From positions 1-51,192 of the forward strand of contig JAFWIM010000048.1 of assembly GCA_017514845.1 (NCBI GenBank): a stretch of 51,192 nt of DNA, read 5' to 3'. The notes under the pieces were generated by a model. It ran no database searches, was not told the DNA's origin, and saw only the letters and a program-made list of their open reading frames with translations. Source of the DNA: Lachnospiraceae bacterium. GTDB lineage: Bacteria > Bacillota > Clostridia > Lachnospirales > Lachnospiraceae. The position numbers were made by a program, and so were the translations under genes. How positions within the stretch are numbered: position 1 is the first letter of the stretch; each line of letters starts with the position of its first letter. Below, piece by piece: positions 7,122 through 19,029 of this stretch.

Positions 7122-7150
7122 TTGAAATAGCAGTTCGATTATGGTATGCT
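7122..7150 (+). promoter_or_regulatory. Promoter of the DtxR-family gene
   Basis: TTGAAA (7122-7127), 17 bp, TATGCT (7145-7150). The start point falls near 7157, giving a short leader before GGAGG and the ATG at 7182. The in-frame ATG at 7146 lies inside the -10 box and so cannot be the real start. A further TTGACA at 6958-6963 has a weaker partner. Confidence 0.7.
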
Positions 7151-7181
7151 AATTGTGAATTCCGATGTCGGAGGTAACAAT

Positions 7182-7604
7182 ATGAATTATAATGAATCAT
7201 CTGAAGATTATCTCGAGTCAATCCTGATGCTCAAAGAGCAGCTCGGCAAGGTCCGCTCAATTGACATTGTATATAAACTTGGCTATTCAAAGCCCAGCAT
7301 CAGTATAGCAATGAAAAAGCTTCGCGAAAAAGGTCTCATCCATATGGATGCCGACGGCTATATCACGCTGACAGATGAGGGAGCCAAAATCGCCCGCCAC
7401 ACCTACACACGCCACAAAGTTCTGACCAATTTCTTCGAGAGCATCGGCGTAGGTCACAATAACGCCGAAGCGGATGCATGCAAGATCGAGCATGATATCA
7501 GCGATGAGACATTCAAGCGCCTCAAGGAGCATATGCATAGACTCCAGGAGCTTGACATCTCTCTCAAGGCTGCAGCGCCGGGAAACATATCCGATGCTGA
7601 CTGA
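7182..7604 (+). CDS. DtxR/MntR-family metal-dependent transcriptional regulator
   Basis: A 140-residue repressor with an N-terminal winged helix (residues 1-65, SSEDYLESILML, then the recognition helix with KPSISIAMKKLREKGL) and a dimerisation/metal domain; no SH3 domain, as in MntR. Metal ligands are readable: Asp/Glu in EDYLE, His in YTRHKVLTNF, and C-x-x-E-H in DACKIEHDIS. The Cys is the DtxR/IdeR (iron) residue, while the early Asp is the MntR (manganese) residue. It is a single gene with its own promoter and terminator and has no transporter beside it. Its target operons cannot be seen here. Confidence 0.92.
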   Translation: MNYNESSEDYLESILMLKEQLGKVRSIDIVYKLGYSKPSISIAMKKLREKGLIHMDADGYITLTDEGAKIARHTYTRHKVLTNFFESIGVGHNNAEADACKIEHDISDETFKRLKEHMHRLQELDISLKAAAPGNISDAD

Positions 7605-7853: not shown

Positions 7854-8357
7854 CTATTGCGTGCGGGCATAACTCGAGTGGAAATCAAGATCCTGTCCGT
7901 TCAGCGCAGCGCGCACAAGCGTGTCGCCGCCGTCGTAGACCAGTTTCAGCGAAAAGAACGGGATCCCCTCATTGAGAAGGCGAAAGAATATTTTATCTCC
8001 TTCCCAGATGTTGAGATCAAATACCGCATCCCGGTCGACCCAGCAGAGCTCCCCCTCATCGCAGTCATGGGGTTCACCTGTAAACGCGTCCGCCGTGAAG
8101 AGAGACATATACTCTGTCACCCCTCCGCCGGAAACAAATGTCACCAGTCCCCGGTACGCATAACTCGTCAGCGTGTAACCGGTCTCCTCGAAGACCTCCC
8201 TGAGAACACACTCTTCCGGGCTCTCGTCCTGTTCAAAGTGCCCGCCGACTCCGATCCATTTGTCTTTATTCACATCGTTCTTCTTCACCGTACGATGAAG
8301 CATCAGATATTTACCGTCTTTTTCGATATAGCAAAGCGTGCTGAGTGATGCGTTCAT
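7854..8357 (-). CDS. Nudix hydrolase, MutT/8-oxo-dGTPase-like
   Basis: A 167-residue Nudix protein. The Nudix box is intact at residues 39-61 (GHFEQDE, seven residues, REVFEETGY), giving the Mg-binding glutamates that hydrolyse nucleoside diphosphate-X bonds. The N-terminal pattern TLCYIEKDGKYLMLHR and the context fit MutT-like house-cleaning enzymes annotated as 8-oxo-dGTP diphosphatases; the exact substrate cannot be fixed. GGAGGA lies at ideal distance from the ATG. It starts 41 bp after the antiporter operon and may be its last cistron. Confidence 0.88.
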   Translation of the reverse strand: MNASLSTLCYIEKDGKYLMLHRTVKKNDVNKDKWIGVGGHFEQDESPEECVLREVFEETGYTLTSYAYRGLVTFVSGGGVTEYMSLFTADAFTGEPHDCDEGELCWVDRDAVFDLNIWEGDKIFFRLLNEGIPFFSLKLVYDGGDTLVRAALNGQDLDFHSSYARTQ

Positions 8358-8398
8358 GCGCTATCCTCCATAGTATGATCCGGATTTAACGTTTCCTG

Positions 8399-10612
8399 TT
8401 ACGGCAGCATATAATACATGAGACAGCCCAGAATCAACAGGATTCCGATGCAGGTCATGAGCAGGGCGAACGAGAAATTGGCAAACAGCGGCACGACGGC
8501 ATCTTCTGTCTGCCGCATGAAGATTTTCAGCCTGCCCTGTCTGCCCGGACCGGCCCCTTTTACAGGTCTTTCCCTCACTACCGTCTTTCTGAGCAGGACA
8601 ACAGCAGCATCCAGGCTGTCAGAGAGCACACGGCCTATAAACGTACCGGCTAAGACCGCCGCGCGGGCGAGCGGCACAAGAACCAGGTCCTCGCCGAAGA
8701 CGGACGCGGCCATGCCGAAGACTTTCGGAATCTGTCTGCAGATCGGGGTAAGGATCCGGTTCTCGCCGAAGATCCGCGCAATTTCACCGAAAATATTCGG
8801 CAGCCAAACAGTGAGCATCGGACGATACAGAAGATCCTCGAGATCCAGCTTTTCCGGCCAGAGGTTCACGTAGCGCCCGTTCCTTATGAAGACATGCCTT
8901 ACAAGCGCGAGGTAGATGAAAAGACCGATCAATATGGAAATTCCGCCGCCCTTCAGGTTTCCGAATGTGAACGCGTGGAATTCCAGGATCTCCTCTTCTC
9001 CTGTCATAAACGCCGCAAGGTTCTTCATAACTGCCGGAACACCGAGAAGAACCATGTAGACCGAGCCGCCGCAGACCGCGATTTTTGAAGCGGTGTTCAT
9101 GCAGTAATCATCCGCGTCGAAAAAGGCCTGCCTCACAGGATCCTCATTTTTCTCAACGAACACGCAGATAAAAAGTTTAAGCATGTATGCGCAGGTAAGT
9201 CCGCCCGAGATGAGGAATATCCACTCCGCACATTGAAGCAGACCGACTGCTCCCGAAAGCGCCGGCAGTTTCTCTTCGATCATCTCGTAGAGCACTACAA
9301 TACCCTCGTGCAGCATCGTCTTAGATACGTAGCCGTTAAAGAGCGGGACACCCCCGATGCCCACCGCTCCAAGAAGAAACGCGATCTTAAGGGGCAGTTT
9401 GTTCCTGCCGTAGCCCCGGATCGCATTGAGATCCAACGCGTGGATATTCATGACAACTGTTCCGGCGCACATAAAGAGGACCAGCTTGAGCAGAGAATGG
9501 TTCACCATATGAAGCATCGTTCCGGAGTACGCGAGAACAAAAGCCTCTCCGCCTTCCCGAAACAGGGACTTCGCAAGGACACTGCTGCCGATGCCGACCA
9601 GAATAAATCCGATCTGGGACATAGACGAACACGCGAGTGTGCGCTTCAGATTGACGGAAAAGAGCGCAAGGAGGGCTCCGAGGAACATTGTGACCACGCC
9701 CAGAGAAAAGATAATACTGCCGAATGTCAGGTTCGTGACCATTGCTCCTGTCGCTGTCATCAGGATCCCGAACACTCCGACCTTGGTCAGGATGCCCGAA
9801 AGCAGAGCGGATGCCGGCGACGGAGCAACCGGGTGGGCTTTGGGAAGCCAGACATGTACCGGGAACATGCCCGCCTTGGCTCCGAAGCCGATCAGAATAC
9901 ACACGCCGGCTGCAAGGATCCTGCGCTTACATGCTGCGGCACTGAGAATTATTGCCGCCCCGCCGGCAGGTGAGACGCCTCCCTCTCCCGCCGTGCTCGA
10001 GGACACTCCCTCTGTCACGGCAAGCTCAATGGCGCTCCTCATATCCGCAAAGTACAGCGTTCCGACAGTTCCCTGCATGAGAAGAAGCCCCATAAAGAGG
10101 ACGAGTCCGCCGATGATCGCAATAAAGAGATACGTGTAGGCGGCGCGGATCGCGCCCTTTGTCTCCTCATGGATGACCCATGTGAAGGATGTGAGTGACA
10201 GGATCTCAAAGAACACGAACGTTGTCATGAGATCGGCTGAGAGCATGACGCCCTGCGTCGCACCCAGGGTGAGAATGACGAACAGCCAGTAGCGGGAAAG
10301 GCCTTCCCTCTCGTGCCTGAAGTATTCTTTAGCGAACAGCGTAGTCCCGGCCCACATCACAGAAGTGATAATGCTGTAGATCGACCGGAATCCGTCCACG
10401 TAAAAATGAAGACCGCCCCAGAATATCACCGGGATGTCAAGGGCGGCTCCCCCCGTGATGATCACCCTGTGGACAAGCAGCAGGGATAGAGCCAGCTCGA
10501 AGAACGTGAGTTCGATCGCGCAGTTATCGCGCAGGTCCTCATTCCGGATACCAAGTATATAAAAGAACGGCGATATGATAATCGGAATAAATACCAGAGC
10601 CGCAATTACCAT
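8399..10612 (-). CDS. Mrp/complex I antiporter-like subunit, NuoL/MrpA-type
   Basis: A 737-residue polytopic protein with the proton-pumping NuoL/M/N fold. The TM5 Glu is in FFEILSLTSF. The TM7 Lys is in KAGMFPVHVWLPKAHP, and the next helix reads ALLSGILTKVG. About 150 residues follow the 14-helix core: a soluble stretch, a second amphipathic region and a final transmembrane helix, like the lateral-helix extension of NuoL/NdhF. It is the last and longest of four such subunits in the operon. Its predicted role is ion/proton translocation at the distal end of the complex. The ribosome binding site GGAGG is 5 nt from the ATG. Confidence 0.88.
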   Translation of the reverse strand: MVIAALVFIPIIISPFFYILGIRNEDLRDNCAIELTFFELALSLLLVHRVIITGGAALDIPVIFWGGLHFYVDGFRSIYSIITSVMWAGTTLFAKEYFRHEREGLSRYWLFVILTLGATQGVMLSADLMTTFVFFEILSLTSFTWVIHEETKGAIRAAYTYLFIAIIGGLVLFMGLLLMQGTVGTLYFADMRSAIELAVTEGVSSSTAGEGGVSPAGGAAIILSAAACKRRILAAGVCILIGFGAKAGMFPVHVWLPKAHPVAPSPASALLSGILTKVGVFGILMTATGAMVTNLTFGSIIFSLGVVTMFLGALLALFSVNLKRTLACSSMSQIGFILVGIGSSVLAKSLFREGGEAFVLAYSGTMLHMVNHSLLKLVLFMCAGTVVMNIHALDLNAIRGYGRNKLPLKIAFLLGAVGIGGVPLFNGYVSKTMLHEGIVVLYEMIEEKLPALSGAVGLLQCAEWIFLISGGLTCAYMLKLFICVFVEKNEDPVRQAFFDADDYCMNTASKIAVCGGSVYMVLLGVPAVMKNLAAFMTGEEEILEFHAFTFGNLKGGGISILIGLFIYLALVRHVFIRNGRYVNLWPEKLDLEDLLYRPMLTVWLPNIFGEIARIFGENRILTPICRQIPKVFGMAASVFGEDLVLVPLARAAVLAGTFIGRVLSDSLDAAVVLLRKTVVRERPVKGAGPGRQGRLKIFMRQTEDAVVPLFANFSFALLMTCIGILLILGCLMYYMLP

Positions 10613-10675
10613 GAAAGCCTCCTTTCACAGAGTAAAAATCACTCCCTGAAGCGGGACGAAAGTGTGTCAGTTGAT

Positions 10676-12139
10676 TTACATGAGTCCAGCCGAGATACGT
10701 CCGATAAAATCCATGACCGGTCCCGACCATACACCGAACAGAATGTTGAGGAAGGCAAAGAAGCCGATCGGCACGAGCATGAACAATCCGGCCTCCCTGA
10801 TACCGGACGGATAGCTGTCTGTCCCGCTCATAGGGAAGAAGGCCCTTACGCTGACAGTCAGCGTGTACATCGCGCAGAGAAAAGCCGCAGCGATGAGGCA
10901 TACGTCTCCGATCACGCCGACCACTGTGCCGGAGGCGGCTCCCGCAAGCAGCAGACGCCATTTGCTGATAAATCCGCAGAACAGCGGTATGCCGGTCAGG
11001 GACAGGGCACCCAGAGTGTAGAACGTGAAAGTCAGCGGCATGCGCCGTCCGACGCCGTTCACCTCATAAATATACTCATTGCCCGTCACATGCATGAACG
11101 CGCCGGCGCAGAGGAACAGCGACATCTTGATGACCCCGTGGAACAGCATATGGGCCATGCCGGCAAGCAGCCCCTCCGGAGTCATCAGCATAATGCCGAA
11201 GAGCATGTAGGACAGATTGCTCACAGTCGAGTAGGCCAGCCTCCTTTTAAAATGACGCTCCTTGAGAGCACCGACCGCGGCAAATACCAGCGTAAACGCT
11301 GCAATCAGCACGCAAAATTCCTGTATTCCGGAGCCGAGCAGAAATTTCGGGCCATAAGCGTACCAGGCAAGACGCATGACGGCATATACGCCGGAGTTGA
11401 CGACAGCTACCGCGTGAAGAAGGGCTGTGACCGGAGTCGGAGCGACGCCGGCAAGGGGAAGCCACCTGTGCAGCGGAAAAACGGCGGCCTTGGTCCCGAA
11501 TCCGAAGAATCCGATGAGAAATACGACCCGCATCAGAGTGTCGGAGAACACATCTCCGAGGTTCCCCCCATACACAAACTCTCCCCCGCCGTCCAGAGTG
11601 GCCATGACCACGGCAAAAAAGCCCAGCGACGCGCCGCCGATACAGTATGCGGCATAGTGCCTTGCGGCGAACAGGCTCTCATGGTCTTCGTAGAATCCGA
11701 CCAGTGGGATCGTGACCAGAGTCAGCATCTCAAAGAACACATACATCGTGACAAGATTGTGGGCAAAGGCCACACCGAGTGTGATCCCGTAGGTCATCAC
11801 GTAAAACGCAAAGAACATGCTCTTGCGAGCGGCATGCGCCATATATTCGAACGCGTAGAGGAGAACGAACGGCCACATGACCGATATCATACCCGCAAAG
11901 AGCATAGCCGGCCCGTCGATCCTGAATGACATTGAAAAGCCCTCGATAAAGCTGTAGACTATGGCCGTTTCTCTCGAACAGAAGGCGAGAGCGATCCACA
12001 CAGAGGCACTGGTCAGGATCGCGACAGTCTCCGCATAGATGTTCCTCATGCGGTCGCTTCGAAAGTTAAGCGGGATAATTAGCGCCCCTCCGAAGACAGC
12101 GAGCCCTATGGGCACAAGTATAAATAAAGGTGAAAGCAT
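10676..12139 (-). CDS. Mrp antiporter-like subunit D (NuoM/N-type), third paralogue
   Basis: A 487-residue 14-helix subunit. It has the TM5 Glu (FFEMLTLVTIP) and TM7 Lys (KAAVFPLHRWLPLAG). The following helix reads ALLHAVAVVNSGVY, with a His as in NuoL and an Asn where MrpD proteins usually carry Lys; the two neighbouring paralogues have Lys there. This suggests a different proton path. Its stop is 63 bp before the NuoL-like gene, and it starts 9 bp after the upstream paralogue's stop. The start is supported by GAGG. Confidence 0.87.
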   Translation of the reverse strand: MLSPLFILVPIGLAVFGGALIIPLNFRSDRMRNIYAETVAILTSASVWIALAFCSRETAIVYSFIEGFSMSFRIDGPAMLFAGMISVMWPFVLLYAFEYMAHAARKSMFFAFYVMTYGITLGVAFAHNLVTMYVFFEMLTLVTIPLVGFYEDHESLFAARHYAAYCIGGASLGFFAVVMATLDGGGEFVYGGNLGDVFSDTLMRVVFLIGFFGFGTKAAVFPLHRWLPLAGVAPTPVTALLHAVAVVNSGVYAVMRLAWYAYGPKFLLGSGIQEFCVLIAAFTLVFAAVGALKERHFKRRLAYSTVSNLSYMLFGIMLMTPEGLLAGMAHMLFHGVIKMSLFLCAGAFMHVTGNEYIYEVNGVGRRMPLTFTFYTLGALSLTGIPLFCGFISKWRLLLAGAASGTVVGVIGDVCLIAAAFLCAMYTLTVSVRAFFPMSGTDSYPSGIREAGLFMLVPIGFFAFLNILFGVWSGPVMDFIGRISAGLM

Positions 12140-12148
12140 CGTTTAACC

Positions 12149-13618
12149 TCAGATGATCATAGTGACAAGATTTGTTCCGAATACGCCGACTAAGAGGGCT
12201 GTAAGGCAGAGGACGATCATCGGCACCCACATGAGGGGCGTCGGTTCCCTGCTGCCCGAGGCAGGCTCCTCCGCCTTCTTCTTTGTGTGCTCACCATGAC
12301 CCTCCTCGTCGTGGCCTGGGAAGAAGGCATCGACCACTACCGGGAGCAGATATCCCGCAGTCAGCAGCGCGGATATGAGCAGAATAACAGGGGGCAGTAC
12401 CGCATAGACACCCATGCCGTCGCCGATGGCGGCCAGGGCGATATGCCATTTGCTTGTAAATCCTCCCATCGGCGGAATGCCGACGAGAGACAGGGAAGCG
12501 ATGAGGAAGCACCACATTGTGATCGGCATGAGCCGGCCGATCCCCCGCAGTTCACTGACCCTCCTCTTGCCGAGCTTGTAGATAAAGACACCTGCACAGA
12601 GGAAGAGGCAGCCCTTCGAGGCTGCATGGGCCGCGACGTGAAGCAGCCCTCCGCGGAGACCCTCGAGGCTGAGAAGCGACAGGCCGAGATTAATGTAGGA
12701 TATCTGACTGATCGTAGAGTAAGCCAGTCTCTTTTTTGTGACCTTCTCCCTGAAGGCCATCATGGATCCCATGAAGATCGTCAGCATGCACAGGGTCATC
12801 CACGCATACTGGACCCAGGTACCCCGGATGAAATCCGGGCCGACAGAGAAATAGACCAGCCTTATGACCGCAATGACACCGGCTTTGGCGATAATACCGG
12901 AGAGCAGGGCCGATGCGGGTGCCGGAGCGATCGGGTGGGCGGTCGGCAGCCAACCGTGCATCGGATACATACCGGCTTTCGTACCGAAACCGACAATCCC
13001 GAGAAAGATTATGAAGAACAGGACTTTTTCATTGGCCGAGGCTCTGGCTGTGTCGAGCACGCCCCCGAAGGCGAACCGGGCTTCACTGCTGTAGTAGGTG
13101 ACAAAGAACACGGCCAGGAGACCGAGCAGCGCGCCGCCGATCGAGTAGAAGAGATATTTGAGGGCCGCGTTCACAGCGTCCTTTGTCATCTCATGAAGGA
13201 CCAGCGGCATCGATGTGAGTGTCGCCATCTCAAAGCAGAGATACATGGTGACCAGATTGCCCGCCATGCAGACCGCCAGCAGCGCGCCGAAGGAGACAAT
13301 GAAGAAGGCGAAGAACACATTCTCCCTCTCCTCCATCTGCATATACTCGAACGCGTAAAAAATGACGCACGTATAGAGAATCATGACCATAACCATGAAA
13401 AATTTGCCTATGGCGTCAATTTCAAAATAGAGATCGATCCCTTCGGCAAATGAAAACAGCCGGAGCGAGCTCCCCGACACCATGGCCAGAATGCCCAGAA
13501 TGTCCGTCGCAATGATCGTGGCAGCATACCACGGATGCCGGGCTTTATCCTCCATTTGCAGCACAGATATAATAATGCCCGCAATGACCGGCACAAGAAC
13601 AGTCGCTGAAATAAGCAT
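12149..13618 (-). CDS. Mrp antiporter-like subunit D (NuoM/N-type), second paralogue
   Basis: A 489-residue membrane subunit with the antiporter signatures CFEMATLTSMP (TM5 Glu), KAGMYPMHGWLPTAHP (TM7 Lys) and ALLSGIIAKAGV (TM8 Lys). The C-terminal loop (about residues 440-465) is short, charged and His/Glu/Lys-rich (HDEEGHGEHTKKKAEEP) before the last helix. Such subunits exchange Na+ or K+ for protons within a larger complex. It lies between two paralogues in the same operon, with GGAG upstream of the ATG. Confidence 0.9.
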   Translation of the reverse strand: MLISATVLVPVIAGIIISVLQMEDKARHPWYAATIIATDILGILAMVSGSSLRLFSFAEGIDLYFEIDAIGKFFMVMVMILYTCVIFYAFEYMQMEERENVFFAFFIVSFGALLAVCMAGNLVTMYLCFEMATLTSMPLVLHEMTKDAVNAALKYLFYSIGGALLGLLAVFFVTYYSSEARFAFGGVLDTARASANEKVLFFIIFLGIVGFGTKAGMYPMHGWLPTAHPIAPAPASALLSGIIAKAGVIAVIRLVYFSVGPDFIRGTWVQYAWMTLCMLTIFMGSMMAFREKVTKKRLAYSTISQISYINLGLSLLSLEGLRGGLLHVAAHAASKGCLFLCAGVFIYKLGKRRVSELRGIGRLMPITMWCFLIASLSLVGIPPMGGFTSKWHIALAAIGDGMGVYAVLPPVILLISALLTAGYLLPVVVDAFFPGHDEEGHGEHTKKKAEEPASGSREPTPLMWVPMIVLCLTALLVGVFGTNLVTMII

Positions 13619-13637
13619 TGCCTAAGCTCCTTTCACG

Positions 13638-15200
13638 TTAATCAAACATCATGAGGCCGCGCTGTATGAGATCCGCCACCGCGGACGAATTGAGCCCCAG
13701 GATCAGGTTGGCGGCCACAAGGATCAGCATGGGTATCCAGTACTCCAGATGACCCGCCATTGTCTCGACGCGTTCCCGGGAATCCGGGACATCCGACTCG
13801 AGATTGTGCATATGCGCGAACTGCTGCGGAGCTGATATATCCGCCCCTCCTCTTCCGCTGGAATATATGCGGATCAGCGTTCGTATAAAATACATCGCGT
13901 TCAGGACGGAACTGATCGCCAGTGCCGTCATGGTAAGGAACAAAATCCTCAAATTATCGGAGTCCGCCGCCGCGAGGGCGAAGAACAGTTTTGCGGAGAA
14001 TCCTGCAAATATAGGAATGCCCACCATTGAAAGCGCCCCCACCAGAAAGTAAAGACCGGCATCTTTGCGGCGCAGACCGCTGCCCTGCAGATTCTTGAAC
14101 AGAAGGCTGTCGCCGGAGACCTCCGCCAGGCGGGGTGTGGTCAGGAACAGCAGGGATTTTGTGAACGCGTGGGCGAGGATCTGGAACATAGCCGCGGCAT
14201 ATCCCAGCGTTCCACCGATACCGATGCCCATATAAATATAGCCGATCTGGGCTGCGGACGAGAATGCGACCATGCGGTTGATGCTCTTCTTACGCATCGC
14301 GGATATGGAGCCGAAGATCATGCTCATGATACCAAGGATAAAAATGATCTTTCTGATCGGAAGCGTCTCAAAGATCTGCGGACCGACCACCCTGTAATAG
14401 ATTTTGAACAGAAGAAAGATATAGGCTTTCGAGACCAGCGCGGACAGGACCGCTGCCGATGTCGGTGTTGCCCAGCCGTACGTGTCCGGCATCCAGAAGT
14501 TGAACGGGAAAAGTCCGCTCTTTATGGACAGACCGATCGTCAGAACGCCCAGGGCAAGAGTGACCGGCTTCATAGCCGCGTCTGAGTAAAAAATCTCCGC
14601 GATTGTCGCGTGCATGGGCACCATGAGGAGGTGACCCGTGATGTCGTAAAGGAGCACGACACCGAGGAGAAAAAGACCCGAGCCCAGAAGATTCAGGCAC
14701 ATATAGCGGACTGCGGCCAGTGTCGTCCGCCCAATCTCCCTGACAATGAGAATCCCGCAGGAAGTCAGAGTCAGTATCTCGAGAAATACATATCCGGTGA
14801 AGATATCGTTGGTCCATATCATCGCCATGAGGGCTGCCGTCATAAGATTGATGAGCACAAAGTAGAGGTTTATCTTTGTCTCGTCAATGTCGATGACCAG
14901 GAACTTCCAGCCGGCAAGTATGCTGCACATCATAATGATCATGAAACACATTGCCATCAGGGCTTCCAGCACCCCGGCCCGTATCTCGTTGCCCCACGGG
15001 GCGGGGAACTCGCCCATGACATAGGTAAAGTCACCGTTCACCGACGTGTACACAAGGACTGCGGCGAGCATGGCAATGAGAGCCGCTTCGTACAGAAGCG
15101 TATAATATTTTGCCGTCCGCCCCTTAAGCATCGTGCACAGGACTCCGGAAAAGAGACTCAGCACGATCGTAAAAAGCGGAAAATTGCAGATAAAGTCCAT
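13638..15200 (-). CDS. Mrp antiporter-like subunit D (MrpD/MbhH-type), first paralogue
   Basis: A 520-residue subunit of the NuoL/M/N family. TM5 reads FLEILTLTSCG, TM7 KSGLFPFNFWMPDTYGWA, and TM8 LVSKAYIFLLFKIYY. The WMPDTY variant is typical of MrpD and MbhH rather than NuoL. It follows mrpC by 2 bp, the position of MrpD in canonical operons, so this is the likeliest true MrpD orthologue. A soluble loop of about 50 residues sits before the final helix. GGAGGATC precedes the start and lies inside the end of mrpC. Confidence 0.9.
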   Translation of the reverse strand: MDFICNFPLFTIVLSLFSGVLCTMLKGRTAKYYTLLYEAALIAMLAAVLVYTSVNGDFTYVMGEFPAPWGNEIRAGVLEALMAMCFMIIMMCSILAGWKFLVIDIDETKINLYFVLINLMTAALMAMIWTNDIFTGYVFLEILTLTSCGILIVREIGRTTLAAVRYMCLNLLGSGLFLLGVVLLYDITGHLLMVPMHATIAEIFYSDAAMKPVTLALGVLTIGLSIKSGLFPFNFWMPDTYGWATPTSAAVLSALVSKAYIFLLFKIYYRVVGPQIFETLPIRKIIFILGIMSMIFGSISAMRKKSINRMVAFSSAAQIGYIYMGIGIGGTLGYAAAMFQILAHAFTKSLLFLTTPRLAEVSGDSLLFKNLQGSGLRRKDAGLYFLVGALSMVGIPIFAGFSAKLFFALAAADSDNLRILFLTMTALAISSVLNAMYFIRTLIRIYSSGRGGADISAPQQFAHMHNLESDVPDSRERVETMAGHLEYWIPMLILVAANLILGLNSSAVADLIQRGLMMFD

Positions 15201-15202
15201 GT

Positions 15203-15583
15203 TCAGCGATCCTCCGTCTGATGCCTCGAGAGCAGATAAATGTCATCAAGGTCGAGCGTGTGATATCTTCGGTACAGCCGTATGGCCAGTGAGAGCATGA
15301 CCGCTGTGACCGAGACCGAGACGACAATACCCGTCAGCACAAGCCCGGCAGGGACCGGATTAATATAAGCATTCACATCCGTCACCCCGTCGGTGATGAT
15401 CGGGGCTTTTCTGCCCCGGATATAGCCCATGGAGGCGAGGAAGAGAAAGATCCCCGTATCCATAATATTCATTCCGATCAGTTTTTTTATCAGATTCCTG
15501 TGAAGCAGGAGCATCGTGAATCCTATTCCGAACAGCACGATCGCCGCCGCTTCCTCATAATTATTGAGCAGTGTCTCAAGCAT
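15203..15583 (-). CDS. mrpC: Mrp antiporter subunit C (NuoK/MbhG-like)
   Basis: A 126-residue protein with three transmembrane helices, homologous to NuoK: LFGIGFTMLLLHRNLIKKLIGMNI, then NAYINPVPAGLVLTGIVVSVSVTAV. The NP-P-ALVLTGIV-like block is the MrpC signature. The ATG at 15583 is preferred; a TTG two codons earlier is also open. Its stop codon lies 2 bp from the first MrpD start. Together with MrpB, F and G it forms the small membrane scaffold of the complex. Confidence 0.92.
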   Translation of the reverse strand: MLETLLNNYEEAAAIVLFGIGFTMLLLHRNLIKKLIGMNIMDTGIFLFLASMGYIRGRKAPIITDGVTDVNAYINPVPAGLVLTGIVVSVSVTAVMLSLAIRLYRRYHTLDLDDIYLLSRHQTEDR

Positions 15584-15634
15584 GAGCAAATGCTTCCTTT
15601 CGATTCGTCTTACCGCGCACAGAGCACCGATCCC

Positions 15635-16597
15635 TCAGGAATTGATCCTGCCGAGGGATCCCCCGATCTGTCCTCTTCTGAATAAACTGTAGAAGCCGAA
15701 CATCGTGCAGGCGACGACCAGCCCTACCGCCACATCCAGAGGAAGGATCAGACCGCCGGAGAGAATTGCTCCGGGAGTGCCTTTGGGTATGTGGTTCTCG
15801 AGACCGTTTGCGCCTGTAAAGAAAACGTAGCCTTTGGCAAAGCTGTAAAAGGACAGCGCGACAAAGGTCACGTAAGTCTGCAGCTTCAGCGTAAAGAACC
15901 TGTCCACGCGGTCGAAGCCGAACGCGGACGTGAATATTATCATCGCGGCTCCCATGATCGCGCCGCCGGAGAAGCCGCCGCCCGGGGAATTCTGTCCATT
16001 GAGCAGCACATATATACCGTAGACAAAGATGCAGGGGACAAGGAATATGCCTATTGTCCTCAGAATTGTGTCTTTCTCACTCGCAAAATAGGTCTCGCGC
16101 ATCGTGGCATAATAATCCTCAAACCCTTTCCGCTGATTCTTGCTGTCGACGCGCAGAAGGATCATGACACAGATAAGGGCGGTAAAGAGCACGTGGGATT
16201 CGCCCAGAGTATCGAAAGCACGATAATCGAGAATCATGCCCGATACGATATTGATTGCCCCGGTCTCCTCAAGTCCGTGCTCAATATAGCGCTCAGCGAC
16301 CGTTGTCGCGCGGACATTCTCCGCGCCGTAGAGCGGGAGCTGTGCGATAATGTACATAAAAACGAGTATGACCAGAACGCAGCAGATGACAGCGATCACA
16401 TCGTAGACCATTTTCAGCCCCTCTCGCTCCCTCGCGATCATGAGGACGGTCTCCCTCCGGCTGTCGATTTCACGGGCGATTTTCTTATCCCGCTCCTTTA
16501 TATCCGCTCTCGCGTGGTCATGCTCCCTTGCCGCGTCGGAGATATTCGCCATAAGGTCGATATCGCCGTCCAGCCATCTTTGGAATGCGTTTTTCAT
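15635..16597 (-). CDS. Fused MbhE-like + MrpB subunit
   Basis: A 320-residue protein in three parts. Residues 1-65 are a highly charged, probably cytoplasmic helix. Residues about 66-160 match the C-terminal domain of MrpA / MbhE, with INIVSGMILDYRAFDTLGE, a variant of the usual NVV-ILVDFRGFDTLGE. Residues about 185-320 are MrpB/MbhF (VLLNGQNSPGGGFSGGAI). In archaeal Mbh these are separate genes and in Mrp they are the MrpA tail and MrpB, so this is a fusion. It overlaps the DUF4040 gene by 4 bp (ATGA). The longer frame to 16843 is ignored because it overlaps that gene almost entirely. Confidence 0.88.
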   Translation of the reverse strand: MKNAFQRWLDGDIDLMANISDAAREHDHARADIKERDKKIAREIDSRRETVLMIAREREGLKMVYDVIAVICCVLVILVFMYIIAQLPLYGAENVRATTVAERYIEHGLEETGAINIVSGMILDYRAFDTLGESHVLFTALICVMILLRVDSKNQRKGFEDYYATMRETYFASEKDTILRTIGIFLVPCIFVYGIYVLLNGQNSPGGGFSGGAIMGAAMIIFTSAFGFDRVDRFFTLKLQTYVTFVALSFYSFAKGYVFFTGANGLENHIPKGTPGAILSGGLILPLDVAVGLVVACTMFGFYSLFRRGQIGGSLGRINS

Positions 16598-16893
16598 CGG
16601 CGACTCCCCTTTCCCTCCGCAGGTCCGGTCTCGCCGGGCTCGGCATTCTCGTCCTCTCTCCGGATTTTTTTCAGCGTCACCAGAAAAAGAAGACCGGAAA
16701 CTCCGGCTCCAACCGCCGCCTCCGTGATCGCCAGATCCGGAGACTCCATGAGTATCCAGAGCAGGCACATCACAGAGCTGTAAGACATAAAAATAATCAC
16801 AGCCTGCAGCAGACTCGGGGTCAGATTGACAGCGACCGCGCATCCGATGAGCAGGACGATCAGTATTATTTTAAAAATTTCAGAAAGATCCAT
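16594..16893 (-). CDS. MbhD/DUF4040 subunit (MrpA C-terminal segment)
   Basis: A 99-residue, three-helix protein with the signature MESPDLAITEAAVGAGVSG, found in MrpA C-terminal regions and in stand-alone MbhD. A polar tail of about 25 residues follows the last helix. As a separate gene it shows that MrpA is split here, as in Mbh-type clusters. It overlaps the next gene by ATGA and starts 12 bp after mrpG. The Glu residues of this helix pair are part of the ion path in Mbh/Mrp structures. Confidence 0.9.
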   Translation of the reverse strand: MDLSEIFKIILIVLLIGCAVAVNLTPSLLQAVIIFMSYSSVMCLLWILMESPDLAITEAAVGAGVSGLLFLVTLKKIRREDENAEPGETGPAEGKGSRR

Positions 16894-16905
16894 GACAGTC
16901 CCTCC

Positions 16906-17223
16906 TCAAAGGCGCTCCATATGATCGAAAAGCTTCGGGTTCGTGTAGTATTCTATCTGACTCAAAAAATGCGATGACACCGGGCTCGTGTTCCACATGA
17001 AAACCACGAGAAGGAAGAGCTTGGCTGCGTCCATTATGCTTCCTGCGCTCACCGCCACAGCAAGGACAACAAGAAGCAGGCCCTGGGTATCACCGACGCC
17101 GCCCGCGTGCATTCGGTTCATGACATAATTAAAACGGCAGTTTCCGATTACTCCTGCCGCAAATGATATAAGTCCACACACAAGGAGGACCGCCGTGATC
17201 CAGAATCGGATCCATTCCATCAT
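16906..17223 (-). CDS. mrpG: Mrp antiporter subunit G (MbhC)
   Basis: A 105-residue protein with three helices. VIGNCRFNYVMNRMHAGGVGDTQG matches the MrpG/MnhG pattern in which a Pro-less R-x-H-A-x-G-V-x-D block follows helix 1. A FMWNTSPVSSHFLSQ segment near the C terminus also fits (normally P-V-A-H or S). The ATG at 17223 overlaps the end of mrpF by 4 bp (ATGA), indicating coupled translation. Confidence 0.92.
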   Translation of the reverse strand: MMEWIRFWITAVLLVCGLISFAAGVIGNCRFNYVMNRMHAGGVGDTQGLLLVVLAVAVSAGSIMDAAKLFLLVVFMWNTSPVSSHFLSQIEYYTNPKLFDHMERL

Positions 17224-17591
17224 GATCGCTTTCCCCTTTCCTTTTTATTCTTCCTCGGTCTTCCGCGGACGCCGGAAGGCGCGGCTGCGTCTTCATGTCC
17301 GAAGCGTTTCCGCTTCGGTCTCGCCGGAATGTACACACTCGCAAGTACCAGGACTGTAACAAAGCTGATCATTGTATATATGAGCGCAACGTCGAGCAGA
17401 TAACTCTCCCCGAGATACGCATACAGAATCGCAATGCAGGCGATGACCATCGTCCCTATCATATTGATCGATAAAATTCTGTCTGTCACACCCGGGCCCC
17501 GGATCGATCTTATCAGCATAACCCCGATAAGGACAGCCAGAATGACCAGCGCGCCAGTGTACAGGCAGGTATAAGCTTCCCATACTGTCAT
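17220..17591 (-). CDS. mrpF: Mrp antiporter subunit F (MbhB)
   Basis: A 123-residue three-helix subunit with RSIRGPGVTDRILSINMIGT, the MrpF signature (R-G-P-x-x-x-D-R-x-x-x-x-N), and ESYLLDVALIYTMISFV. It carries an unusual C-terminal basic tail of about 35 residues rich in Arg and Lys (PKRKRFGHEDAAAPSG onward), longer than most MrpF. GGAGG precedes the ATG, which overlaps mrpE by 4 bp. Confidence 0.92.
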   Translation of the reverse strand: MTVWEAYTCLYTGALVILAVLIGVMLIRSIRGPGVTDRILSINMIGTMVIACIAILYAYLGESYLLDVALIYTMISFVTVLVLASVYIPARPKRKRFGHEDAAAPSGVRGRPRKNKKERGKRS

Positions 17592-18043
17592 ACGAACCTC
17601 CTGAGCAATTTTACAAAGCTGGATTCGCCAAGTCCCTCCGCATACTCGCGGCGCAGGGCATGAACAACAAAATGATCACCCTTCTGAAAGACCGTTATAG
17701 TCCCCGGGGTCAGCGTGATCGAATTGGCAAGGAGCACATTCAGAAATCGGCCGGGAAGGCCGGAATGAAATTCCACAAGGACCGGATCAGGTTTCGCGCC
17801 CGGAGCGAGTGCCACCCCGATCACTGTCACCGAAGCCTTAATCACTTCCCATATCAAGTTCAAAGCATATACGATACCTACAGGGAGATTTCTGGCGATC
17901 CGGACATCCATTGCGACAGAGTATCCGAGAACTTTAATAAGAAATGCGTAGATAAGCGCCGTAACGGCGATACCGAAAAGAACAATCTCGAGGGTAATAC
18001 GCCCGTTAAGAACGATCCACAACAAAAAAAACAAAATCGGCAT
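17588..18043 (-). CDS. mrpE: Mrp antiporter subunit E (MbhA)
   Basis: A 151-residue protein with two N-terminal helices and a cytoplasmic domain. LANSITLTPGTITV and the nearby HVVHALRRE block are the MrpE/MnhE fingerprint. It is the first gene of the ten-cistron antiporter operon, with GTGAGGAG before the ATG and its own promoter. Gene order E-F-G-(MbhD)-(MbhE+B)-C-D is that of Mbh/Mbx and split Mrp clusters. Confidence 0.93.
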   Translation of the reverse strand: MPILFFLLWIVLNGRITLEIVLFGIAVTALIYAFLIKVLGYSVAMDVRIARNLPVGIVYALNLIWEVIKASVTVIGVALAPGAKPDPVLVEFHSGLPGRFLNVLLANSITLTPGTITVFQKGDHFVVHALRREYAEGLGESSFVKLLRRFV

Positions 18044-18081
18044 AAACTACTCCTCACACCGGTAATAATTGCACGATCAAT

Positions 18082-18109
18082 ATTGTACCATATTTCGTAC
18101 AATTTGAAA
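18082..18109 (-). promoter_or_regulatory. Promoter and candidate operator of the antiporter operon
   Basis: On the minus strand: -35 TTTCAA (18109-18104), 16 bp, -10 TACAAT (18087-18082). The spacer and -10 form an inverted repeat, ATTGTAC-N8-GTACAAT (18103-18082), that would place a dimeric repressor over the promoter. The leader to mrpE is short. Confidence 0.6.
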
Positions 18110-18156
18110 CACCAAAAAAATGTTATACTAAAGATGAGCAGACAGACATGCAAATA

Positions 18157-18179
18157 GGGGCTGCCTGACCGGCAGCCCC
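18157..18179. terminator. Hairpin between the response regulator and the antiporter operon
   Basis: GGGGCTGCC and GGCAGCCCC form a 9-bp perfect stem with a 5-nt loop, 20 bp after the stop of the response regulator gene (minus strand). The T tract is weak, so it may be a poor terminator or an RNA-stabilising hairpin. The GGGGCTGCC sequence matches the outer arm of the family A repeats. Confidence 0.5.
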
Positions 18180-18199
18180 TGACCCCTTTAGTGACGCAT

Positions 18200-18907
18200 T
18201 CAATTGTCGCTCATCATATAACCTACGCCCCTGATATTTTTAATATATCTCGGCTTTTTGGAATCATCCTCGATTTTTTCTCTGAGATGGAATATATGTA
18301 CCATGATGGCATTCTCATAGTTGGTGTAGATCATCCCGTTGATTGCCCTGCACAGCTCTTCCTTCGAGAAGGCTCTGCCCGGGTATCTCATCATTGTGTG
18401 GAGGATTTTATACTCGTTCGGGGTTATCTGAACCACTTCCCCGTTCTTTGACAAAGTCAGATTTTCTGTGTCCAAACACAGTTCCCCGATCTGCAGAAGA
18501 TGTTCATTCTCATTATCACACCAGGCCGGATTCAGAATAAAGTATCTCCTGGTCTGAGCCCCGACACGGGCAACCATCTCAAGCGGATTGTCCGGCGTTA
18601 CAAGGACGTCATCCGCTCCGAGATCAAGGCATGCAATTTTATCACTTGCTGACAGGTCATCGGCGAACACAATGATCGGTATATTGCCGTTCTCGCGGAT
18701 CCGGCAGAGCAGAGTTTTACCGTCCATACATCGAATGTCACGATTAATCAGCACAATATCGACCGCGTCATTCAGCGACATTCCATATGCTGCATCCCCG
18801 CTTGAAGCACACAGCACACGGTAGCCGTTATTTTGCAGGCACTCTTTAAAAGTTTCCGCTTCCTTCGCATTGTGATCAGCAACTAAGACCGTATGATGAA
18901 CTGTCAT
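18200..18907 (-). CDS. OmpR-type response regulator with degenerate receiver
   Basis: A 235-residue protein with a receiver-like domain (1-120) and a C-terminal winged helix (about 140-235, ITPNEYKILHTMMRYPG and IKNIRGVGYMM). The receiver has lost its chemistry. The phosphoacceptor position (six residues before MDG) is Asn55 (VLINRDIRCMDG), the conserved Lys is Thr (VLVTPDNP), the switch Thr is Ala (IIVFADD), and the acidic pair is Asp-His. It is therefore probably phosphorylation-independent. The start at 18907 follows a weak GGGGTGAT site. No kinase gene is adjacent. An intact regulator is encoded divergently. Confidence 0.9.
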   Translation of the reverse strand: MTVHHTVLVADHNAKEAETFKECLQNNGYRVLCASSGDAAYGMSLNDAVDIVLINRDIRCMDGKTLLCRIRENGNIPIIVFADDLSASDKIACLDLGADDVLVTPDNPLEMVARVGAQTRRYFILNPAWCDNENEHLLQIGELCLDTENLTLSKNGEVVQITPNEYKILHTMMRYPGRAFSKEELCRAINGMIYTNYENAIMVHIFHLREKIEDDSKKPRYIKNIRGVGYMMSDN

Positions 18908-19029
18908 ATAATCACCCCATTTCCGATTCACGATGTCGCTGCAAAACGGATAGTTTATTTATGCACAATACGTCCATTAGTCTCTGGCAGCATCAACAGC
19001 ATTATTTTAACAGACGAATGGACACAAGC

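Follow-up and report, generated by a model that had tools for sequence, protein, structure and literature searches.

What drives a membrane complex that carries four antiporter-like pumps and no recognizable redox module? This question is raised by ten genes on the minus strand, at positions 8399–18043, of a 51,192-nucleotide stretch of Lachnospiraceae DNA (assembly GCA_017514845.1, contig JAFWIM010000048.1), termed the window. The genes follow the order E-F-G-MbhD-MbhE/MrpB-C-D1-D2-D3-L, in which D1, D2, D3 and L are the pumps. By published definition, the operon is a stand-alone group 3 Mrp system and not Mbh, Mbx or complex I, and its product is probably a cation/proton antiporter complex of the CPA3 kind.

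Composition and conservation of the operon

All ten open reading frames (ORFs) of the cluster are present and intact. Adjacent genes overlap by 4 bases or lie 2–63 bases apart, and because of this tight spacing the simple reading is that they form one operon. Each of the ten proteins matches Pfam above the gathering score: MNHE, MrpF_PhaF, PhaG_MnhG_YufB, MbhD, MbhE and MnhB together in the fusion protein, Oxidored_q2, and Proton_antipo_M (PF00361) in D1 (520 residues), D2 (489), D3 (487) and L (737). The window's genome, a metagenome-assembled genome (MAG) of 3.18 megabases in 259 contigs and 83% complete, has exactly four PF00361 matches, all of them in the operon. A preliminary description, made from the sequence alone, had recognized a ten-gene Mrp-type cluster with an MbhE–MrpB fusion, four pump subunits and no redox module at the locus; the intact ORFs and the Pfam matches, all to membrane-module families, bear out each of these points.

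This arrangement recurs among relatives. A contig scan with L confirmed 109 of them, and the best 80 of the 109 loci were fetched, mainly from rumen or gut MAGs titled Lachnospiraceae, Clostridiales or Blautia. One rumen strain with the operon, Lachnospiraceae bacterium AD3010 (L101), is apparently an isolate, to go by its record title. All ten genes are present at 57 of these 80 loci, invariably in the same order and with exactly four pumps, which excludes a chance arrangement; in at least three of the 57 (L086, L113 and L122), the last gene reaches the contig end. At the remaining 23, a contig end lies no more than 330 bases from the start of the first operon gene found. When the longest non-overlapping ORFs were clustered, no flanking family was common to more than 11 of the 57 complete loci, and the most frequent family resembles scattered ABC ATPases (named by eye). 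Within the genus, D1 is present in 31 of 42 genomes. Genome G023 has D1 on C17 and, in two adjacent pieces at C50:19636-21062, a second D1-like copy that is either a second operon copy or contamination.

Assignment to group 3 Mrp

By definition, a group 3 Mrp system has no mrpA and does have mrpD, "sometimes with multiple copies" (PMC8415708, in part). The operon holds homologues of MrpB, C, D, E, F and G in one cluster; no mrpA gene unites its MbhD, MbhE and four D-type proteins, and it lacks the single MrpA of groups 1 and 2, in which a NuoL-like core is combined with the MbhD/MbhE part. No energy-input redox module is recognizable either. Pfam profile searches of the window's genome gave zero matches to PF00346 (NuoD/MbhL or hydrogenase large-subunit type), PF00146 (NuoH/MbhM type), PF01058 and PF00374. 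The first two would be expected in MBH, MBS, Mbx or Ech, and the first three in complex I, for which NuoI was not searched by itself. PF00346 and PF00146 are also missing from nine of the 12 operon-bearing congeners that are 90–100% complete, including the single-contig genome G027.

The group 3 Mrp of P. furiosus and the cyanobacterial mrpCDCDEFGBB cluster likewise have E, F, G, B, C and D, no single mrpA and no redox module (PMC8415708 and PMC5703873, in part); they have one or two D-type proteins, whereas the window's operon has four, an MrpA-like extension on L and MbhE fused to MrpB. Plasmid pHTUR04 of Haloterrigena turkmenica carries the same order with three pumps (E-F-G-DUF4040-B-C-D-D-D) and no Nuo- or hydrogenase-type gene among the annotations of the 17 kilobases (kb) shown. 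There, MbhD and MbhE are apparently joined in the DUF4040 protein, judging by its length, MrpB is separate, and the opposite strand carries a gene with a 2Fe-2S ferredoxin domain ~1.2 kb upstream of the cluster. Gene order, which the preliminary description had taken as that of Mbh/Mbx complexes, is thus not diagnostic.

The MBH and MBS complexes of Pyrococcus have a homologous membrane module, and MbsE is also an MbhE–MbhF(MrpB)-type fusion (PMC8415708, in part), but they carry a hydrogenase or sulfane-reductase arm, which the operon lacks, and fewer pumps. Complex I can also have more pumps in series than is usual, as in Nitrospira 2M, the rhizobial green form and the five-pump Manganitrophaceae form, five being the highest number known (PMC9040806, in part); these enzymes have a full quinone/NADH arm, whereas the window's complex must run on an ion gradient. 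D3 is 36.6–38.0% identical to the D-family protein of rhizobial records; in two of these records, that protein belongs to a Nuo cluster containing NuoM, NuoN and two D-type genes, taken as the green form of complex I. Group 1 Mrp (Bacillus MrpABCDEFG) shares the fold and the pathway residues, and L matches the MrpA fold, but group 1 has two pumps and MrpA is one fused protein.

Proposed function and ion circuits

The most likely activity of the complex is Na+(K+)/H+ antiport, which would be driven by the proton motive force and involve no electrons. MrpE, F, G, B and C together with MbhD and MbhE would form the cation-translocating and coupling end, and D1-D2-D3-L the proton-conducting arm, probably in gene order, with D1 adjoining MrpC and L most distal. 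Protons entering via the pumps would push Na+ (or K+) out, or the reverse, with the four proton modules coupled by Glu/Lys contacts. For a system of two modules, coupling via such contacts and two protons per Na+ have been modelled (PMC7419157, in part). At one proton per module, four modules would move about four H+ per Na+, and more pumps would possibly mean more H+ per cation. Na+ is the likely coupling ion of the stand-alone group 3 Mrp of P. furiosus (PMC8415708, in part). Where Rnf is present, the complex could join the Na+ circuit made by Rnf to the H+ circuit, a pairing of Rnf and Mrp that has been proposed in the literature (PMC10553843, in part). Rnf was found in 33 of the 37 genus genomes examined; G013 and G026 are among those in which it was not. 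In a check on the ion type of the ATP synthase, a V-type c subunit was read.

Several findings weigh against a stand-alone antiporter of this design. Rnf is missing from the window's own 83%-complete MAG and from G027, which has the operon. NuoD-type genes occur in four operon-bearing congeners (G002, G011, G032 and G037). The window's own species might still encode an Ech at another site, because a very close relative, G003 (64% complete), carries PF00146 and PF01058 genes side by side (C329:5151-6395) that look like part of an Ech; no such pair is found in G025, a more complete relative than G003. AlphaFold confidence is low beyond residue 610 of L and for MbhE–MrpB, and the length of L behind the conserved lysine of transmembrane helix (TMH) 12 does not rise with pump number.

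Interaction with a soluble or other redox partner, such as Rnf in an Rnf–Mrp unit or a protein docking on the N-terminal extension of MbhE, is unlikely. An Rnf-type operon does lie directly upstream of the Mrp operon at four of 33 related loci outside the genus (L190, L192, L193 and L195, with two or three pumps each); the Rnf genes C, D, G, E, A and B were confirmed by Pfam for L192, and those of the other three by ORF pattern only. The N-terminal extension of MbhE is conserved, and Rnf and Mrp are regarded as functionally paired (PMC10553843, in part). However, no Rnf neighbour recurs in the 57 complete loci, the operon of G027 occurs where Rnf was not found, and proximity to Rnf is explained no less well by a common ion circuit than by physical association.

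Phylogeny and pathway residues of the four pumps

The positions of the four paralogues were resolved in a tree of 120 pump proteins built by a quick search with Shimodaira–Hasegawa-like approximate likelihood ratio test (SH-aLRT) supports, in which the long branches of E. coli Nuo/Hyf and of Mbs are placed unsurely. The rows of D1, D2, D3 and L each lie on one side of a branch. D1 groups with all other first-position clostridial-type pumps and with the extra copies of five-pump loci (99), in the half of the tree that holds MrpD, NuoN and MbhH (97). L groups with the other last-position pumps of clostridial-type operons, those of two-pump operons included (100). D2 and D3 are sisters (SH-aLRT 100), and the single middle pump of the three-pump operons L173-L175 branches just outside them (97). 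By this tree, D2 and D3 therefore stem from duplication of one middle pump, with D1 and L fixed in first and last position. Four pumps were reached by another route in L177 and L188, and L164 and L165 have five via extra D1-type copies. Matches in the PDB suggested that D3 is a true NuoL/MrpA orthologue, a candidate that was rejected; the tree places D3 with D2, apart from NuoL/MrpA.

The Glu/Lys path can be traced through all four pumps, with D3 lacking LysTMH8. GluTMH5, LysTMH7 and LysTMH12 are kept in 64/64 rows of D1, 70/70 of D2, 73/73 of D3 and 81/81 of L (one gap at GluTMH5 of L), and LysTMH8 is kept in every row of D1, D2 and L. The TMH8 motif of D3 is ALLHAVAVVN, with H242 in 73/73 rows and N248, the Asn in place of LysTMH8, in 71/73; deeper relatives L121 and L129 do not have this Asn. 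At the same position, pump p2 of L184 also has Asn and p2 of L181 has Tyr. The TMH8 His is common to D3, MrpA, NuoL, HyfD, rhizobial MrpD1 and haloarchaeal D2, and is also found in the middle pumps of L173-L175 and in p2 of L177, L181, L184 and L188; D2-type pumps and p2 of L193 have Ser there.

In MrpA, TMH8 has an additional His; NuoL retains this His alone, which presumably takes the place of LysTMH8 (PMC7419157, in part). D3 shows this His-on-TMH8 (pi-bulge), Lys-absent pattern of NuoL, with Asn at the site of the lost LysTMH8, a site that Thr occupies in NuoL. Since D3 is sister to D2, it has reached the NuoL-like state independently, as a shared residue pattern and not by orthology. The preliminary description was right that the third paralogue has His and Asn at these sites. 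Its suggestion that they signal a different ion specificity was rejected because the His is the MrpA/NuoL signature of TMH8, and only the loss of Lys is distinctive.

That loss, together with the fact that duplication can yield extra copies, would fit D2, D3 or L being redundant or regulatory, with a two-pump Mrp (D1 plus one other) as the working antiporter. All four pumps are nevertheless kept in the 57 ten-gene loci with nearly invariant Glu/Lys residues, and NuoL, which does function as a pump subunit, likewise has the TMH8 His but no Lys (PMC7419157, in part); redundancy is a quite improbable explanation.

Search for a redox arm

The preliminary description had also considered the operon as the membrane arm of a complex with its redox arm encoded at another locus, which would make it part of a redox-driven pump of the Mbh, Mbx or Ech-like kind. 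Mbh and Mbs do have the same membrane module (PMC8415708, in part), and some congeners encode such complexes, with PF00346 in 13 of 42 genus genomes. Both PF00346 and PF00146 are missing, however, from 27 of the 31 operon-bearing congeners (a sub-cut-off PF00146 match in G016 was counted as absent), and the NuoH-type connector is lacking as well. Neither family has a match in G020, G025, G027 or G035; both are present in G002, G011 and G037, which are operon-bearing and 90–100% complete. PF01058 is missing in seven of the eight genomes searched, the exception being G003, and PF00374 in all eight, in a weak search whose control was detected in just 5 of 14 genomes. Moreover, the hydrogenase-type cluster in each of G026 and G011 comes with a dedicated Mrp module, made up of EFG, MbhD/E, B, C and one pump. 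With the negative searches of the window's own genome, a redox arm encoded elsewhere was rejected as the principal explanation; it is unlikely because nine of the 12 near-complete operon-bearing congeners lack NuoD/NuoH-type genes, and an Mbh-, Mbx- or Ech-like redox pump is very improbable. The Mbh-type hydrogenase clusters of these two Lachnospiraceae of the same genus lie at G026:C1:338000-356000 (L166) and G011:C74:1-20000 (L167).

Across the genus, NuoD/NuoH-type genes are present in 4 and missing in 27 genomes with the operon, and present in 8 and missing in 1 without it (Fisher p 5e-5; two partial-operon genomes, G003 and G038, excluded). A kinship-aware test on a tree of 37 of the 42 genomes, with G003 and G038 counted as operon-bearing, left only 4 independent pairs on supported branches (on average, 2.9 pairs against the redox genes and 0.4 with them; median p of the sign test, 0.25). 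A tendency of the operon to occur in genomes without NuoD/NuoH-type complexes is suggestive only, not significant after kinship correction, and mutual exclusion is unsupported.

The L extension and the MbhE–MrpB protein

NuoL/MrpA-type subunits have a core of 14 TMHs, followed by a lateral helix and a last TMH. L has the C-terminal extension noted in the preliminary description, and its fold matches B. pseudofirmus MrpA over model residues 1–617, into the start of the lateral helix. Residues 611–720 mostly have a predicted local distance difference test (pLDDT) score <50, and the low-confidence model suggests a lateral helix plus a final TMH. Behind LysTMH12, the last pump has 332–388 residues in two-pump, 202–316 in three-pump, 249–353 in four-pump and 284–287 in five-pump operons; the lateral helix as a ruler for pump number was rejected for lack of a length trend.

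The AlphaFold model of MbhE–MrpB has a mean pLDDT of 55 and was not used. The MbhE motif DYRAFDTLGE is invariant in 26/26 aligned rows, and the spacing of its second D and its E, four residues apart, suggests a resemblance to MrpA D792 and E796, which have been described as the cation exit (PMC7419157, in part). The conserved, charged N-terminal extension (window 16400–16597) contains a WLDGD motif and could be a cytoplasmic docking element. L188, in which MbhE is a protein by itself, lacks this extension. The coding sequence most likely starts at 16597, with a 4-base overlap with MbhD.

Features and neighbouring genes

Table 1. Genes of the Mrp-type operon, in gene order (window positions)
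Feature	Position	Strand	Remarks	Basis
MrpE (MbhA-like)	17588..18043	-		PF01899 E 6e-24
MrpF (MbhB-like)	17220..17591	-		PF04066 E 3e-11
MrpG (MbhC-like)	16906..17223	-		PF03334 E 5e-20
MbhD	16594..16893	-	first part of MrpA C-terminal region	PF13244 E 1e-19
MbhE-MrpB fusion	15635..16597	-	conserved N-terminal extension, ~65 residues	PF20501 + PF04039, alignment
MrpC (NuoK-like)	15203..15589	-		PF00420 E 1e-22
D1, pump 1	13638..15200	-	first position; E141, K227, K258, K404	PF00361 E 8e-40, tree, residue alignment
D2, pump 2	12149..13618	-	sister of D3; E130, K214, K245, K390	PF00361 E 2e-52, tree, residue alignment
D3, pump 3	10676..12139	-	sister of D2; E137, K217, H242, N248 (Lys lost), K393	PF00361 E 3.5e-50, tree, residues
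L, pump 4	8399..10612	-	last position, C-terminal extension; E136, K246, K277, K431	PF00361 E 9e-44, model, fold matches, residues

Upstream of mrpE, separated from it by 156 bases and in the same orientation, is an OmpR/PhoB-type response regulator (18200–18931), and a DtxR/MntR-like regulator and a Nudix-like gene (7146–7604 and 7854–8357) lie just downstream of the operon, all named by eye; a Nudix-like gene, also named by eye, is downstream at 8 of the 57 loci. A scan of 8200–18400 gave 12 promoter-like sites versus 8.0 expected and 18 terminator-like sites versus 10.2, of which no use was made.

Variation in pump number

Pump number varies among the 33 related loci, with two pumps in 2, three in 17, four in 10, five in 3 and seven in 1, counting ORFs of at least 380 residues. 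These loci, a non-random sample from 32 genomes with some stretches cut at one end, derive from four order-level genomes, 12 of 17 other class-search matches, and 17 loci chosen among the 137 phylum-level genomes, of 398, that matched MbhE. The count excludes two group 1 operons, three hydrogenase clusters and two loci of the same genus. The MbhE–MrpB fusion recurs in four-pump relatives (L162, L163, L170, L171, L172 and L196), and MbhE and MrpB are two genes in L173-L176, L177 and L188. The search for redox neighbours relied solely on the Nuo and Hyf proteins of E. coli as references; one of the 33 loci adjoins an iron-only hydrogenase. The variable pump number of these related operons (two to five, once seven) is new: the titles and abstract openings listed in searches of open-access literature gave no stand-alone Mrp with at least four pumps and no graded pump-number series.

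Two loci depart further from the common layout. At L194 (G440:C1:2651401-2671400), genes for the iron-only hydrogenase and for a molybdopterin oxidoreductase (both by Pfam) adjoin a five-pump Mrp cluster, with one pump gene upstream of mrpE, possibly a formate- or hydrogen-driven Mrp complex without NiFe hydrogenase. L187 (G743:C14:35201-55200) has seven antiporter-like genes, with MrpB, MrpC and one pump ahead of E-F-G, and its stretch ends within the last of them.

Implications for ion energetics

One tentative interpretation is that the number of pump modules in series (2, 3, 4, 5 and perhaps 7), altered through pump duplication, sets the H+/Na+ ratio, making stand-alone Mrp complexes variable-gear exchangers. 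If true, a four-pump complex could hold a steep Na+ gradient at weak proton motive force, for example in an acid-stressed fermenting cell. The number of protons moved by each antiporter-like subunit of complex I, and the coupling of these subunits in a row, are disputed. In the operons described here, evolution altered pump number without attached electron transfer; H+/Na+ ratios across the two-, three-, four- and five-pump versions would bear on one-proton-per-module coupling and, if the ratio is indeed set by pump number, such a series would measure the protons per complex I antiporter-like subunit free of electron transfer. For the rumen Lachnospiraceae, the operon would add an ion exchanger to their energetics.

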